Part shown: positions 13,566 to 27,743 of the stretch, piece by piece
Numbering within the stretch: the stretch's first letter is position 1
Layout of the letters: every line of letters starts with the position of its first letter
Source of the DNA: Desulfuromonadales bacterium
Lineage (GTDB): Bacteria; Desulfobacterota; Desulfuromonadia; Desulfuromonadales; BM103
Length of the DNA stretch: 32,352 nucleotides
NCBI GenBank assembly: GCA_030145195.1
Contig: JAQYVY010000002.1
Location: 121,285-153,636, forward strand
Direction of reading: 5' to 3'
Notes under the pieces: generated by a model
Told to the model about the DNA's origin: nothing
Database searches by the model: none
The model's input: the letters and a program-made list of their open reading frames with translations, nothing else
Position numbers and translations under genes: made by a program

Positions 13566-13694
13566 GTCTTTATCAAGAGTGGTGGAGGGACAGGCCCTTT
13601 GAAGCCACAGCAACCGGTTCGTTGTAATTTTATGCGAATGTCAGGTGCTAAATCCTTCTCGTCAGGAGAACACCCTGAAGAGAGCGATGAGGAC
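13566..13694 (+). promoter_or_regulatory. SAM-I riboswitch (S-box) aptamer
   Basis: The conserved core is present: TATCAAGAG, GGTGGAGGGAC, GGCCC, GAAGCCACAGCAACC and AGGTGCTAAATCC, followed by a P4 hairpin TTCTC-GTCAG-GAGAA. P1 is formed by 13566-13574 with 13686-13694, nine pairs including G-U. It lies upstream of metX, a methionine-synthesis gene. SAM binding should stabilise P1 and favour the downstream terminator, shutting metX off when SAM is plentiful. Confidence 0.96.
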
Positions 13695-15029: not shown

Positions 15030-15194
15030 CTATAACCAGAAAAACATTGTGCTTGCCACTAAGTCACAAAGGCACCAAGTAGACCGCTACAAGAACAAAA
15101 CAAAATCATACCTTTGCCATATTAATGGGGTCAGACAAAAACCTAAGAATTCCTTCGTGCCTTGGCGCCTTCGTGGCCAACCTTCTGGTTATAG
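15030..15194. repeat. Octamer-array element A (CCAC class), gene-less, with outer 12-bp inverted repeat
   Basis: Inner inverted arms at 15053-15079 and 15152-15180 are built of an 8-nt unit (CACTAAGT CACAAAGG CACCAAG and its complement). Outside them a perfect 12-bp inverted repeat, CTATAACCAGAA (15030-15041) and its complement (15183-15194), closes the unit. The interior carries no gene. It shares a 20-nt identical stretch (15093-15112) and general alignment with element G at 27502-27634 in the opposite orientation. It stands in the gap between metX and the small Cys-rich gene; the rest of that gap holds only the metX terminator. Confidence 0.8.
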
Positions 15195-17297: not shown

Positions 17298-17436
17298 AAC
17301 GCAAAGGCGCAAAGACGCAGAGAAACAATAAGGGTCAGAAACAGGGATTGTTTACCCCCAAAAATAGGACTTAGTGTCTTCGTGTTCAAGATTAAATTGA
17401 GGTTTGGTTCTCTTTGCACCTTTGCGCCTTTGCGTT
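17298..17436. repeat. Octamer-array element B (CGC class), gene-less
   Basis: The left arm at 17298-17323 begins AACGCAAAGGCGCAAAG and the right arm 17412-17436 is its inverse, with 17 outer bases perfectly matched. The interior of about 88 bp has no gene. It contains a second partial array of the other class near 17371-17390 (TTAGTGTCTTCGTGTTCAAG). It lies between the divergent pepF and GAF genes, upstream of both. Confidence 0.75.
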
Positions 17437-18112: not shown

Positions 18113-18271
18113 CGCAAAGAGCCTAAGACATGGCTGGGCGGGAGAACCTGTTGCCCCTTGTCTCGAACCTGCGACACTGTCCCTTGATCTTAACACTAGG
18201 TGCTTAAAGCCCTTAAAGGTTTACCCCTTAGGGCATATGCTTTTCCTTTGCGTCTTTGCGTCTTTGCGTTA
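18109..18271. repeat. Octamer-array element C (CGC class), left arm decayed
   Basis: The right arm at 18245-18271 is a clean three-unit array (inverse of TAACGCAAAGACGCAAAG plus one more unit). The left arm is only TTAGCGCAAAGA at 18109-18120 and overlaps the GAF gene stop codon, so it may be degenerate or coincidental. The 120-bp interior shows no gene. Confidence 0.5.
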
Positions 18272-20290: not shown

Positions 20291-20384
20291 TTGCCACAAA
20301 GTCACAAAGGCACCAAGGAAGAAACTCTTATTTGAGACCCTCAACCCGAAAAGTTTTTCCTTCAAGTCTTTGAGTCTTCGCGGC
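20291..20384. repeat. Octamer-array element D (CCAC class), gene-less
   Basis: The left arm at 20291-20318 (TTGCCACAAAGTCACAAAGG and two further half units) is nearly inverse to the right arm at 20359-20384. The interior is about 40 bp and differs from elements A and G. It is located between the porin terminator and the FG-GAP gene start. Confidence 0.7.
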
Positions 20385-23121: not shown

Positions 23122-23529
23122 CTAGTGCTCACCAGGCTCACAAAGTTCTGTAAGAATACCACCACTTGCCTTGGGATGCAAAAATGCGATACGGGCACCA
23201 TGCGCTCCCGTCCGTGGAACTTCATCAATTAACCGGACCCCTTGCGCCTTAAGCGCGACCAGTCGCTGCTCAAGGTCCGTGACTTCATAAGCCAGATGAT
23301 GAACGCCAGGGCCATTCTTCTCCAGAAACCTGGCAACCGGTGAGTCGGGCGCGGTCGGTTCGAGCAATTCTATGCGGCTCTCGCCCACGACGAAAAACGC
23401 CACTTTGACTTTCTGCTCGGCCACCACCTCGGTGCCCTCAAACTCCATCCCGAGGGTGTCGCGGTAGTAGGGGGTGGCTTCTTCGATACTGGCAACGGCG
23501 ACACCGATGTGATTAATTTTTTTAAGCAT
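23122..23529 (-). CDS. mce: Methylmalonyl-CoA epimerase
   Basis: Converts (S)- to (R)-methylmalonyl-CoA so that the mutase can use it, linking propionyl-CoA carboxylation to succinyl-CoA. The 135-aa vicinal-oxygen-chelate protein starts MLKKINHIGVAV and has the metal ligands expected of the family at H7, E54, H78 (GPGVHHLAYEV) and E128 (ILTELCEP). Length is normal. meaB and mutB lie upstream on the same strand, but the GxxExxY element separates meaB from this gene. No terminator was seen after it. Confidence 0.95.
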   Translation of the reverse strand: MLKKINHIGVAVASIEEATPYYRDTLGMEFEGTEVVAEQKVKVAFFVVGESRIELLEPTAPDSPVARFLEKNGPGVHHLAYEVTDLEQRLVALKAQGVRLIDEVPRTGAHGARIAFLHPKASGGILTELCEPGEH

Positions 23530-23553: not shown

Positions 23554-24046
23554 TTAACGCAAAGACGCAAAGACGCAAAGGCTGGCTACAACTCCGGCAA
23601 CCCATTGACAACCCTGTGAATGCCATCTTTAACAAAATTGTTTCCAAAGTTAATAATTAACCCCAACCTTAATCCGGTAAGCCTGAGGTAAGTCAGCAAC
23701 TGCGTATGGAAGATCGGGTTCAATTTCTCTACAGCCTTAACCTCAACAACGAGTTTATCCGAAACCAGCAGATCAAGGACGAGAGGCTTCTTTATTTCAA
23801 GACCTTTGTACAAAACCGGCACCGGCAACTGCCTCACTACCGGCAGATTCCGCAACGTCAGTTCACGAGCTAAGGCCTGCTCATAGATGTCTTCAAGTAA
23901 ACCCGGCCCACCCAGCTCACGATGCACCTCTATTGCCGCACCAATAACCTGACGACTAATCGCATTCTCATTCAATTTCCCCTCCTTAACGACAATAACA
24001 ATAAAATAAAAAAGTCTTTCTTTGCGCCTTTGCGGCTTTGCGTTAA
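23554..24046. mobile_element. Octamer-array element E (CGC class) carrying a GxxExxY gene
   Basis: The left arm at 23554-23580 and right arm at 24020-24046 are 27-nt inverted arrays (TTAACGCAAAG then two further CGCAAAG units) matching at 25 of 27 positions. The only content between them is one intact GxxExxY gene with its own ribosome site, so the unit of 493 bp looks like a mobile cassette. It sits between meaB and mce, 5 bp after the meaB stop and 24 bp before the mce start codon. No target-site duplication was recognised. Mobility is inferred from structure and from the sister elements in this window. Confidence 0.7.
23586..23975 (-). CDS. GxxExxY-family protein, PD-(D/E)XK nuclease-like
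   Basis: The 129-aa product begins MNENAISRQVIGAAIEVHRE. The family motif is G25-L-L-E28-D-I-Y31. A PD-(D/E)XK-type core follows: D68 in LVLDLLV, E78 and K80 in VVEVKAVEK, then Q92 in HTQLLTYLRLTG, as in the PDDEXK_3 group. The start is a TTG at 23975 behind AAGGAGGGG; the longer frame to 24215 runs through the repeat arm and meaB and is not real. Family members often occur as several copies in a genome; their function is unsettled. Here the gene is tightly framed by inverted octamer arrays, so it may nick or process those arrays. Confidence 0.85.
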   Translation of the reverse strand: MNENAISRQVIGAAIEVHRELGGPGLLEDIYEQALARELTLRNLPVVRQLPVPVLYKGLEIKKPLVLDLLVSDKLVVEVKAVEKLNPIFHTQLLTYLRLTGLRLGLIINFGNNFVKDGIHRVVNGLPEL

Positions 24047-24051
24047 AACGA

Positions 24052-25029
24052 TCAGCCTCTCTTAAACGCCCCCAAAAGCCGTCGCACCGCCGCTCCCGGC
24101 GTGGTGGTGCCGCTAGCGACAGATTCCTGGATTTGCGGTAACAGCACTTCGATTTTAGGATGACGCAAAAACATCTGTTTAAGATCGTCTTGGAGCAGGG
24201 TCCACATCCAGTCATTGGCCTGTAGCTTGCGCCGGTCTTCGAGTTCGCCGCTTGCTTGCATGCGGGTGCGGAAATCGACGATGGCGTCCCACACCTCAGA
24301 GATGCCTTGATTGTGCAAGGCGCTGCAGAGCATGGCGGGCACCTGCCAGTTCATACTTTTGGGTTTGAGCATGTGCAAGGCGTTGACGTACTGCTGGCGG
24401 GCCAGTTTAGCTCGGGGGAGGTTGTCGCCTTCGGCTTTGTTGATCAGGATCGCGTCGGCAATCTCCATGACGCCGCGCTTGATCCCCTGCAGCTCATCGC
24501 CAGCATTGGGCAGTTGCAGCAACAGAAAGAAGTCAACCATGGACGCGACCGTGATCTCGGACTGACCAACTCCGACCGTTTCGACAATAATCACATCATA
24601 GCCAGCAGCTTCGCAGGTGAGCATGGTCTCGCGGGTTTTACGGGCCACGCCGCCGAGCGTATCACCAGCGGGTGAGGGCCGGATAAAGGCATTGGCCTCT
24701 CGGGCCAGCTCTTCCATGCGAGTCTTGTCACCAAGAATGCTGCCACCGGAAATCTGCGAAGAGGGATCGACCGTCAGCACCGCGACTTTGTGGCCCTGAC
24801 TGAGCAGGTACATACCGAAAGCTTCGATAAAGGTGCTCTTGCCAACCCCGGGGACGCCGGAGATGCCAAGGCGGATGGATTTGCCCGTATCAGGGAGGAG
24901 TTCGTCGAGCAGAGTGGTTGTGGCGAGAGAGTGGTCGAGGTTGCGGCTTTCAATCAGGGTGATGGCTTTGGCCAGGGCACGCACGTTCCCGGCCCGGACT
25001 CCAGCGGCGATGTCTTCGATTTTGATCAT
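24052..25029 (-). CDS. meaB: MeaB-type GTPase, methylmalonyl-CoA mutase chaperone
   Basis: G3E-family GTPase that guards B12 loading and protects methylmalonyl-CoA mutase from inactivation. The 325-aa length fits. Walker A is GVPGVGKST (residues 58-66), with VDPSSQISGGSILGDKTRM, the base-specific LINKAEGD motif and an ETVGVGQSE switch region, all typical of MeaB/ArgK. Its partner mutB lies upstream on the same strand, but the mutB terminator and element F stand between, so meaB may need its own promoter. The ribosome site is modest (CAGG). Confidence 0.95.
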   Translation of the reverse strand: MIKIEDIAAGVRAGNVRALAKAITLIESRNLDHSLATTTLLDELLPDTGKSIRLGISGVPGVGKSTFIEAFGMYLLSQGHKVAVLTVDPSSQISGGSILGDKTRMEELAREANAFIRPSPAGDTLGGVARKTRETMLTCEAAGYDVIIVETVGVGQSEITVASMVDFFLLLQLPNAGDELQGIKRGVMEIADAILINKAEGDNLPRAKLARQQYVNALHMLKPKSMNWQVPAMLCSALHNQGISEVWDAIVDFRTRMQASGELEDRRKLQANDWMWTLLQDDLKQMFLRHPKIEVLLPQIQESVASGTTTPGAAVRRLLGAFKRG

Positions 25030-25045
25030 GATAGAACCTGTTTAT

Positions 25046-25242
25046 CGCCCGCTCGCGTTGCTCGCTCAAGACGCAAAGACGCGAAGAAGAAATCCCAAAA
25101 GAGTTAACGCCCGCTCGCGTTGCTCACTCAAGTCGCAAAGACGCAAAGGAGAACACAGAAAAAGCAAAAACCTTTAGTTTGGGGTTAAAACCCACAAAAG
25201 ATTTTGGAGGTTTCCTCTGCGATCTTTGCGTCTCTGCGTTAA
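25046..25242. repeat. Octamer-array element F (CGC class) with a 41-bp direct repeat
   Basis: A right arm at 25214-25242 is inverse to arrays at 25070-25086 and 25132-25148. Two direct copies of a 41-bp block (25046-25086 and 25108-25148, 38 of 41 identical) each contain CCCGCTCGCGTTGCTC followed by CTCAAG and an octamer array. The second copy is preceded by TTAACGC, so the GCTCGCG block seems to split an older array. It lies between the mutB terminator and meaB. Confidence 0.75.
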
Positions 25243-27455: not shown

Positions 27456-27501
27456 AAGTGTCAATCCTTTGGAATAAACAGACAGTTCTATAAACGAAAA
27501 A

Positions 27502-27634
27502 AGTTAGCCACTAAAGTACCAAGACACGGAGAACTTCTTAGGTTGTTGCCTAACCCCTTCAATAGAGCAAGGGTATGATTTTGTTTTGTTCCTGCATCGG
27601 GTCACTTGGTGACTTTGTGTCTTGGTGGCCAACT
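27502..27634. repeat. Octamer-array element G (CCAC class), gene-less, homologous to element A
   Basis: Arms at 27502-27531 (AGTTAGCCACTAAAG onward) and 27602-27634 are inverse arrays. The interior contains 27572-27591, the exact complement of 15093-15112 in element A, and aligns to A throughout. An 8-bp direct repeat TCTATAAA occurs on both sides (27487-27494 and 27649-27656), a possible target duplication. The element fills most of the gap between the XRE-cupin gene and mutB, so the mutB promoter must lie in or beside it. Confidence 0.8.
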
Positions 27635-27743
27635 CAAGTTGTGCCTAGTCTATAAATCCGTAAAAAAAAACGACAACCAAGAAACAAGTCCGGAGGCAGG
27701 TTATCCCGGCCTAAGTCCCAAGTCCTCGACCGCCGTGATTTTT

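Follow-up and report, generated by a model that had tools for sequence, protein, structure and literature searches.

Inverted heptamer arrays frame GxxExxY genes in bacteria and archaea and covary with the encoded nuclease-like protein

RESULTS

A GxxExxY gene lies between two inverted heptamer arrays

The window analyzed here (the whole stretch of 32,352 nt from a Desulfuromonadales genome) carries a GxxExxY gene between meaB and the gene for methylmalonyl-CoA epimerase, and this gene is enclosed by two inverted arrays of a short repeat:

23122 to 23529, minus strand: methylmalonyl-CoA epimerase gene, neighbor on one side of the gene element (context)
23558 to 23580, plus strand: left array, three exact CGCAAAG units with a period of 8, reading toward the GxxExxY gene
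23586 to 23975, minus strand: GxxExxY (PDDEXK_3) putative nuclease gene, 129 aa, TTG start with AGGAGGGG upstream, identified by profile matches and a model
24020 to 24042, minus strand: right array, three exact CGCAAAG units with a period of 8, inverted
24052 to 25029, minus strand: meaB, neighbor on the other side of the gene element (context)

The encoded protein scores 136.7 bits against TIGR04256 (cutoff, 35) and 133.2 bits against PF13366 PDDEXK_3 (cutoff, 22). The inverted arrays, which a previous sequence-only reading had described around the gene, are real, and each is built from three exact CGCAAAG heptamers at an 8-nt period. With up to two mismatches allowed, 0.61 matches to the pattern CGCAAAGNCGCAAAG would be expected in the window and 16 were found; with at most one mismatch, the pattern was found 124 + 131 times (255) in the whole genome, compared to 0 + 2 times for the reversed pattern. 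A looser profile scan picked up 13 arrays in the window, compared to 5 after reversal of the window and between 0 and 3 in each of ten shuffled versions. Given these excesses over expectation and over the reversed and shuffled controls, we conclude that the arrays are not a product of chance.

The source genome encodes two further GxxExxY proteins, and no CGCAAAG arrays surround either of these genes. By eye, one of them (L001) lies between inverted CACGGAG-type arrays and the other (L003) between inverted CGCTGAT-type arrays, with automatic scores of 77 and 76, respectively, against a threshold of 80. This suggests that the layout is general and that the unit is specific to each gene. Beside the first of these genes (L001, 720 to 1500), there are four tandem copies of a 240-bp unit that contains CACGGAG arrays, and at G000:C31:10682-11207 CGCAAAG arrays occur every 85 bp, with six consecutive starts. 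Separately, at six loci (L201, L204, L208, L212, L035, and L040) one end is extended by a GCTCACTTAAG-like sequence, which replaces the usual AAC and is possibly a second end type of the elements.

Gene-less array pairs within the window

Six additional pairs of arrays, to which no strand was assigned, enclose no gene:

17300 to 17434: gene-less pair, CGCAAAG type, 87-nt loop
18110 to 18268: gene-less pair, CGCAAAG type; right array (18246 to 18268) exact, left arm degenerate (by eye)
25134 to 25238: gene-less pair, CGCAAAG/CGCAGAG type, between mutase and meaB; an extra single array at 25063 to 25086
15057 to 15175: gene-less pair, CACNAAG unit; copy of the element at 27509 to 27627
20295 to 20382: gene-less pair, CACNAAG type, right arm (20368) degenerate
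27509 to 27627: gene-less pair, CACNAAG type; inverted copy of 15057 to 15175

All six gene-less pairs of the sequence-only reading thus exist, but three of them belong to the CACNAAG rather than the CGCAAAG type and two have one degenerate arm. An automatic scan with one threshold recovered four of the seven window pairs, that of the gene among them, and a lower threshold added the pair at 27509 to 27627. Hairpins are predicted for the gene-less pairs, and the three of the CGCAAAG type all lie between long open reading frames. One gene-less element is present in two inverted copies, which extend through the loop, at 15031 to 15194 and 27488 to 27654. The first copy has outer inverted ends, TATAACCAG and CTGGTTATA; this element is likely to be one mobile unit that is bigger than its arrays. 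In an Rfam search of the window, the sole family found was a SAM riboswitch (RF00162, 72.4 bits) located away from the elements, at 13567 to 13693, where it overlaps the listed start of the metX open reading frame.

The GxxExxY protein resembles nucleases of the RecB/Cas4 type

RecB/Cas4-type PD-(D/E)XK nucleases share an E-D-ExK-QxxxY residue pattern, and Cas4 additionally carries a four-cysteine Fe-S cluster. The AlphaFold2 model of the window protein (pLDDT, 95.1) has as its best structural match SSO0001 (4ic1), a Cas4 protein, with a Z score of 10.0 and an rmsd of 2.9 Å over 99 aligned residues; the named Cas4 4r5q also matched (Z score, 7.0). Foldseek alone returned no PDB match to the model at an E value of ≤0.001. 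Residues E28, D68, E78, K80, Q92, and Y96 show conservation of at least 0.98 among 213 aligned proteins, and this conservation of the catalytic residues makes it likely that GxxExxY proteins are active nucleases. Judged by these residues and its predicted fold, the window protein is a PD-(D/E)XK nuclease of the RecB/Cas4 type; it contains no cysteine at all and thus lacks the Fe-S cluster residues of Cas4.

Searching Pfam with the window protein at E values up to 0.1 yielded PF13366 alone, with no tyrosine transposase domain, and three GxxExxY proteins gave no match to PF04754 (Rpn) at E values up to 0.1. Sequence searches for solved relatives returned none with an alignment profile and two weak matches with the single protein. 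Searches with PADLOC and PHROGs gave weak matches only (Cas4-, PtuA-, and CRISPR-like).

GxxExxY genes are framed by arrays across bacteria and archaea

Loci were scored for six heptamer copies, three per side and inverted, with no sequence assumed (maximum score, 105; threshold, 80). As the sequence-only reading had asked, GxxExxY genes are flanked by arrays far beyond chance: 213 of 269 genes were framed at the threshold, compared to 35 of 1398 control intervals, where one of the three gene sets is the best 80 of 585 stretches and where the controls, taken from those loci themselves, could contain genuine arrays. For the source genome and its relatives (set 1), framing was seen for 58 of 80 genes and 8 of 480 control intervals; four fragment matches (G023 C35, G038, G045 C14, and G020 C608) were left out of this set and read separately, and one locus at a contig end (L080) was skipped. 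A plain alignment of the two flanks in the same set gave scores of at least 18 for 65 of 80 genes versus 54 of 1529 controls. Loci from named genomes and a viral scan (set 2) were framed in 65 of 81 cases, versus 10 of 486 controls; this set comprises the best 80 of 585 confirmed stretches plus four viral loci, with four near-end matches skipped, and is biased toward proteins near the query. The phylum-wide set (set 3), composed of 27 new loci from the search and 80 picked from its list, with 1 of 109 genes unscored, had 90 of 108 genes framed versus 17 of 432 control intervals.

The titles of loci above the threshold include Chloroflexota, Planctomycetes, Acidobacteria, Bacteroidetes, the cyanobacterium Stenomitos, Spirochaetota, Parachlamydiales, Gemmatimonadetes, and a Methanosarcinales archaeon with the score of 105; a Methanothrix locus reached only 70. 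The 56 of 269 genes below the threshold include two of the three GxxExxY genes of the source genome. In 159 of the 213 framed cases, the left and right arrays have the same spacing pattern, compared to a mean of 37 and a maximum of 56 after shuffling; in 186 of 213, the units are oriented toward the gene. Matches to the family were obtained in 39 of the 58 relatives and in 97 of 295 genomes from the phylum, a patchy presence with 1 to 9 matches per positive genome.

The four-helix-bundle family TIGR02436 was considered as a second framed family in the same relatives. It was rejected, since only 2 of 28 genes were framed (30 loci examined, 2 unscored; controls, 0 of 168), and became a negative control. 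At the meaB-epimerase junction of G033 (L191, 2543 to 2923), which holds GxxExxY in other genomes, the cassette contains a TIGR02436 gene flanked by a different sort of inverted A+T-rich repeat (AGAATACAGAACACAGAATA).

The spelling of the heptamer tracks the protein

The sequence-only reading needs correction in that the unit is not fixed: each GxxExxY gene has its own heptamer, differing from gene to gene within the consensus C-(A/G)-C-N-(G/A)-A-(G/T, rarely A or C). Among the 204 proteins left after dropping those at least 90% identical, unit similarity correlated with protein similarity (Mantel r = 0.458), the largest value in 2000 permutations being 0.11. The four-mer content of the DNA just outside the arrays was uncorrelated with protein similarity (r = −0.007), so that plain linkage does not explain the covariation.

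We further counted coinciding changes of residues and unit bases by parsimony on a midpoint-rooted FastTree tree of 213 proteins, along which many unit switches occurred, with p values matched for branch length and for terminal and internal edges; the unadjusted Fisher values quoted here come from 819 tests in one screen and 98 in the other. Residue 7 and unit base 5 changed together 14 times against 4.9 expected (stratified p = 2e-5; unadjusted Fisher, 1.7e-7), and residue 4 and unit base 4 did so 18 times against 8.2 expected (1e-4; 1.5e-5). For residue 8, whose classes were defined after the pooled data had been seen, 20 joint changes with unit base 5 compare to 9.2 expected (4e-5; 3.9e-7). 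Of the 79 proteins with N at residue 4, 63 have A as unit base 4; of the 31 with E at this position, 26 have G. The window protein, with N4, S7, R8, and the unit CGCAAAG, is consistent with these residue-base states. All three residues fall within the first helix of the model (residues 3 to 20), where their spacing would place them on one face. Residue 116 and unit base 7 (K/R with G, E/Q with others) gave one of the strongest raw associations, which we dropped as evidence because it reflects one deep split of the tree plus two single-tip reversals (three edges) and not independent events.

Recognition of the arrays by the GxxExxY protein appears well supported by this covariation. The earlier idea that the protein acts on the arrays is thereby made likely, and cutting is a step that we infer.

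Gene-less copies are more abundant where a matching gene is present

Arrays of four units were counted in 58 genomes, CGCAAAG with one mismatch and a spacing of 1 and the other three units exactly; whether a genome has a matching gene was decided manually, and two genes below the framing threshold (L051, score 79; L019, score 66) were accepted as matching. With versus without a matching gene, the median counts were 53 versus 6 for CGCAAAG (Mann-Whitney P = 3e-5), 12 versus 0 for CACCAAG (P = 6e-4), 33.5 versus 0 for CACGAAG (P = 6e-4), and 7 versus 0 for CGCAGAT (P = 8e-5). Subtracting four hits per gene for its own arrays, which was not applied to CGCAAAG, left P values of 0.009 for CACCAAG, 0.0013 for CACGAAG, and 0.0007 for CGCAGAT.

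Gene-less relatives carrying the same unit as the gene were found and are commoner where that gene is present, albeit with exceptions. At least 10 arrays were counted without a detected gene of the unit in 19 of 49 genomes for CGCAAAG, 3 of 53 for CACCAAG, 6 of 54 for CACGAAG, and 5 of 51 for CGCAGAT. In G039, which has a CACCAAG gene, the array copies do not exceed what the gene's own arrays could supply, and G056 contains CGCCAAG pairs, yet neither of its detected GxxExxY genes (L032 and L074) has this unit. According to the sequence-only reading, arrays should be lacking from genomes that never had such a gene; the 19 relatives without any GxxExxY match gave a mixed result, with 0 to 7 hits for the three unit types counted exactly and up to 33 for CGCAAAG counted with one mismatch.

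Among 40 element regions from seven other genomes, 37 are complete pairs. The sampled pairs have near-identical arms around loops of 10 to 229 nt that are mostly unrelated by eye, and a few have a second repeat in common. The same gene-less element was seen in two species (L368 and L371), and at one locus (L195) a gene remnant lies between CGCAGAT arrays, its four best matches being CGCAGAT-class proteins.

Long residence of the gene and turnover at shared sites

The epimerase gene was found at 28 of the 30 meaB loci that we read, and in 12 cases a GxxExxY gene lies between the two, always in the orientation of meaB; the shortest of the other junctions measure 35 and 44 bp. The LGGPG subgroup, to which the window protein belongs, accounts for 10 of 276 gene matches, and 9 of these 10 are at the meaB-epimerase junction, the tenth having neither neighbor within the 2.4 kb read. 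The window gene thus looks like an old resident and not like a recently moved cassette.

At this junction, each of the genomes G045 and G056 has a GxxExxY cassette of its own, with its own unit, and the two genomes become homologous again at the neighboring genes; the DNA flanking the cassette is 94.5% and 96.5% identical. From the gene-less elements of G045, 12 were chosen and 10 queried, and 9 had both flanks in G056. Both genomes have the same element at the L361 site (96%), and their contents still align at the L355 site (69%). CGCCAAG arms replace CACCAAG arms at six of the nine sites, L355 included, and G056 has only a CGCAGAG-type pair at the L353 site and another repeat at the L356 site. 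Over the nine sites, exact counts in G045 versus G056 were 46 versus 4 for CACCAAG and 5 versus 25 for CGCCAAG. The differing contents and arm types at shared sites indicate that contents change fast and that arms change together.

Six G045 loops that we searched each occur once in G045 and are absent from G056. Those elements were thus not spread by joint copying of arms and loop, and copy-paste of loop plus arms is ruled out as a general mode. Dispersed whole copies are nevertheless represented by the window pair at 15031 to 15194 and 27488 to 27654 and by composite G056 elements with 70 to 80% identity between sites. A comparison of orthologous loci for empty sites, which the sequence-only reading had proposed, produced no clean pair of empty and filled sites in G045 and G056, whose orthologous sites differ in content, and no target duplication was seen.

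At the orthologous sites in G056 (L392 to L407), CGCCAAG pairs enclose nested arrays of the CGCAGAG/CGGAGAG type, which is the unit type of one resident gene; the arrangement looks like that of an element inserted into another. The same genome contains a repeat of ∼80 bp (query bases 600 to 681) in more than 30 copies of 92 to 100% identity, located outside the heptamer arrays.

The family is chiefly chromosomal

With one query protein, the GxxExxY family was detected in 8 of 72,556 plasmid records and in none of 50,697 phage records, and a motif scan of 2.9 million viral contigs yielded 4 loci, whose genes had array scores of 87 to 105. On these counts, we rejected an insertion sequence shared with plasmids and phages as an explanation. 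The exact triple CGCAAAGACGCAAAGACGCAAAG is present in 20 stretches of viral contigs. Two viral protein structures (G8DDC4 and R4TGU4) closely match the fold of the window protein, and one algal virus protein is annotated as GxxExxY, so that the family is not confined to cells. It is thus chiefly chromosomal and rare, although not absent, on mobile DNA.

DISCUSSION

What the sequence-only reading had observed in one window is confirmed and turns out to be wider than first described, and its interpretation of gene and arrays is partly supported. We favor, with a probability of roughly 0.6, a system resembling RAYT/REP in which a heptamer-reading GxxExxY nuclease acts on its own element and on gene-less elements. 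The protein, a putative nuclease of the Cas4/RecB type, would recognize one heptamer, present three times per arm at fixed spacing in two inverted arrays, with the N-terminal part of helix 1 (residues 4, 7, and 8) reading unit bases 4 and 5. Several GxxExxY copies would sit on the three units of each arm, and both arms would be bound, whether those of the gene's own element or those of gene-less elements anywhere in the genome. The bound nuclease might then cut or nick array-bounded elements, and the host repair or replication machinery could copy, move, or replace the cut element. The gene would stay long at one chromosomal site, and matching gene-less pairs would accumulate and turn over. 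Direct binding, cleavage, mobilization in trans, and the way in which the elements spread are the parts of this scheme that we infer.

The turnover at shared sites also bears on a cut-and-repair drive, in which the nuclease would cleave without any transposition and repair from other arrays would homogenize the arms and swap the contents. This explanation, which we regard as unlikely, accounts well for different contents at the same intergenic sites of ∼95%-identical genomes, where arms changed together at many sites, for the swapped cassette at the meaB-epimerase junction of G045 and G056, and for near-identical arms around loops that by eye seem unrelated. However, it leaves the origin of new sites unexplained, the swapped loops were not found elsewhere (the six G045 loops had no match in G056), and some elements are dispersed as complete copies with their loops.

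Long residence at one site, rarity on plasmids and phages, and the retention of arms around differing loops would be expected if the arrays served the cell, being bound or processed by a resident nuclease that works in recombination, repair, or chromosome organization, and were selected by the host instead of being selfish. We consider such a host function improbable in view of the patchy presence of the family among relatives and across the phylum, the 1 to 9 matches in positive genomes, the decayed genes, and the many unit switches on the tree. It is quite improbable that the system works at the RNA level, with array hairpins in transcripts being bound or cut by the protein to regulate operons: the gene-less pairs are predicted to form hairpins, and the three CGCAAAG-type pairs of the window do lie between long open reading frames, but the fold is like that of DNA nucleases, and a hairpin requires only inverted arms, yet the spelling of the heptamer covaries with the protein. 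Finally, the notion that the arrays are mini-elements moved by another enzyme, between which GxxExxY genes were merely caught, is hardly credible, since it could explain genomes having arrays without a detected gene of that unit but not the covariation of unit and protein, the framing of 213 of 269 genes (including the best 80 of 585 stretches), or its rarity (2 of 28) for the four-helix-bundle family of the same genomes.

Returning to a heptamer-reading nuclease that acts on its own and on gene-less elements, we would give even odds to the broader proposal of a new class of genome parasites or residents in bacteria and archaea, in which a standalone Cas4/RecB-type nuclease uses its N-terminal helix to read a tunable heptamer (residue 4 with base 4, residues 7 and 8 with base 5), gathers on the three tandem copies of each arm, and drives both spread and genome-wide turnover of elements bounded by arrays. 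Literature on GxxExxY, in the portions accessible to us, does not discuss repeats, and a search with the repeat strings and with PDDEXK/REP found no description of the pairing, most subscription journals and bioRxiv being outside its reach; the nuclease-repeat partnership is general and apparently undescribed. Triplets of CACAGAG, CACGAAG, and CGCAGAT, which occur in many sampled genomes, have no described partner in the literature searched. Linking them to GxxExxY would explain a class of dispersed inverted repeats and provide a function for a widely annotated family that is, as far as the literature was searched, apparently uncharacterized. If the residue-to-base correspondence is right, the specificity of a small nuclease would become readable, and under the broader proposal the family would be a candidate source of retargetable nucleases.

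Among known systems, Cas4/RecB-type nucleases share with the GxxExxY protein the E-D-ExK-QxxxY pattern and, through 4ic1, its best structural match; the window protein differs from Cas4 in having no Fe-S cysteines, in its length of 129 aa, and in being framed by its own arrays. The Rpn (YhgA-like, PF04754) proteins are also PD-(D/E)XK nucleases and, according to the accessible part of PMC5350276, are linked to recombination, have little, if any, sequence specificity, and show independent insertions at the same place. They belong to another Pfam family, and that part of PMC5350276 mentions no repeat partner. MITEs are likewise short, gene-less, and multicopy and have terminal inverted repeats, but their partner is a DDE transposase, whereas here the presumed partner is a standalone nuclease and most sampled loops look unrelated between copies; one gene remnant, possibly derived from a gene-bearing element by internal deletion, was seen between the two arrays at L195.

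The closest parallel is with REP-associated tyrosine transposases and their repetitive extragenic palindromes (RAYT/REP), as described in the accessible part of PMC2817692. In both systems, a gene lies between two inverted repeats that are also dispersed without it, protein and repeat covary, and the abundance of the repeat follows its gene (PMC2817692, same part). The analogy to REP/RAYT or MITE systems drawn in the sequence-only reading holds for framing and gene-less relatives, and the covariation adds to it. RAYTs, in the same part of PMC2817692, are tyrosine transposases of the IS200/IS605 kind acting with a palindrome that has a GT(A/G)G head, whereas here a putative PD-(D/E)XK nuclease is paired with three direct tandem heptamers per array; since neither the enzyme nor the palindrome is that of RAYT/REP, the GxxExxY system is not a RAYT. 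Its range also differs from that given for RAYT/REP in the accessible text, the GxxExxY pairing being found in many bacterial phyla and in archaea. If our reading is true, the RAYT/REP way of life would have arisen again, convergently, with an unrelated nuclease.
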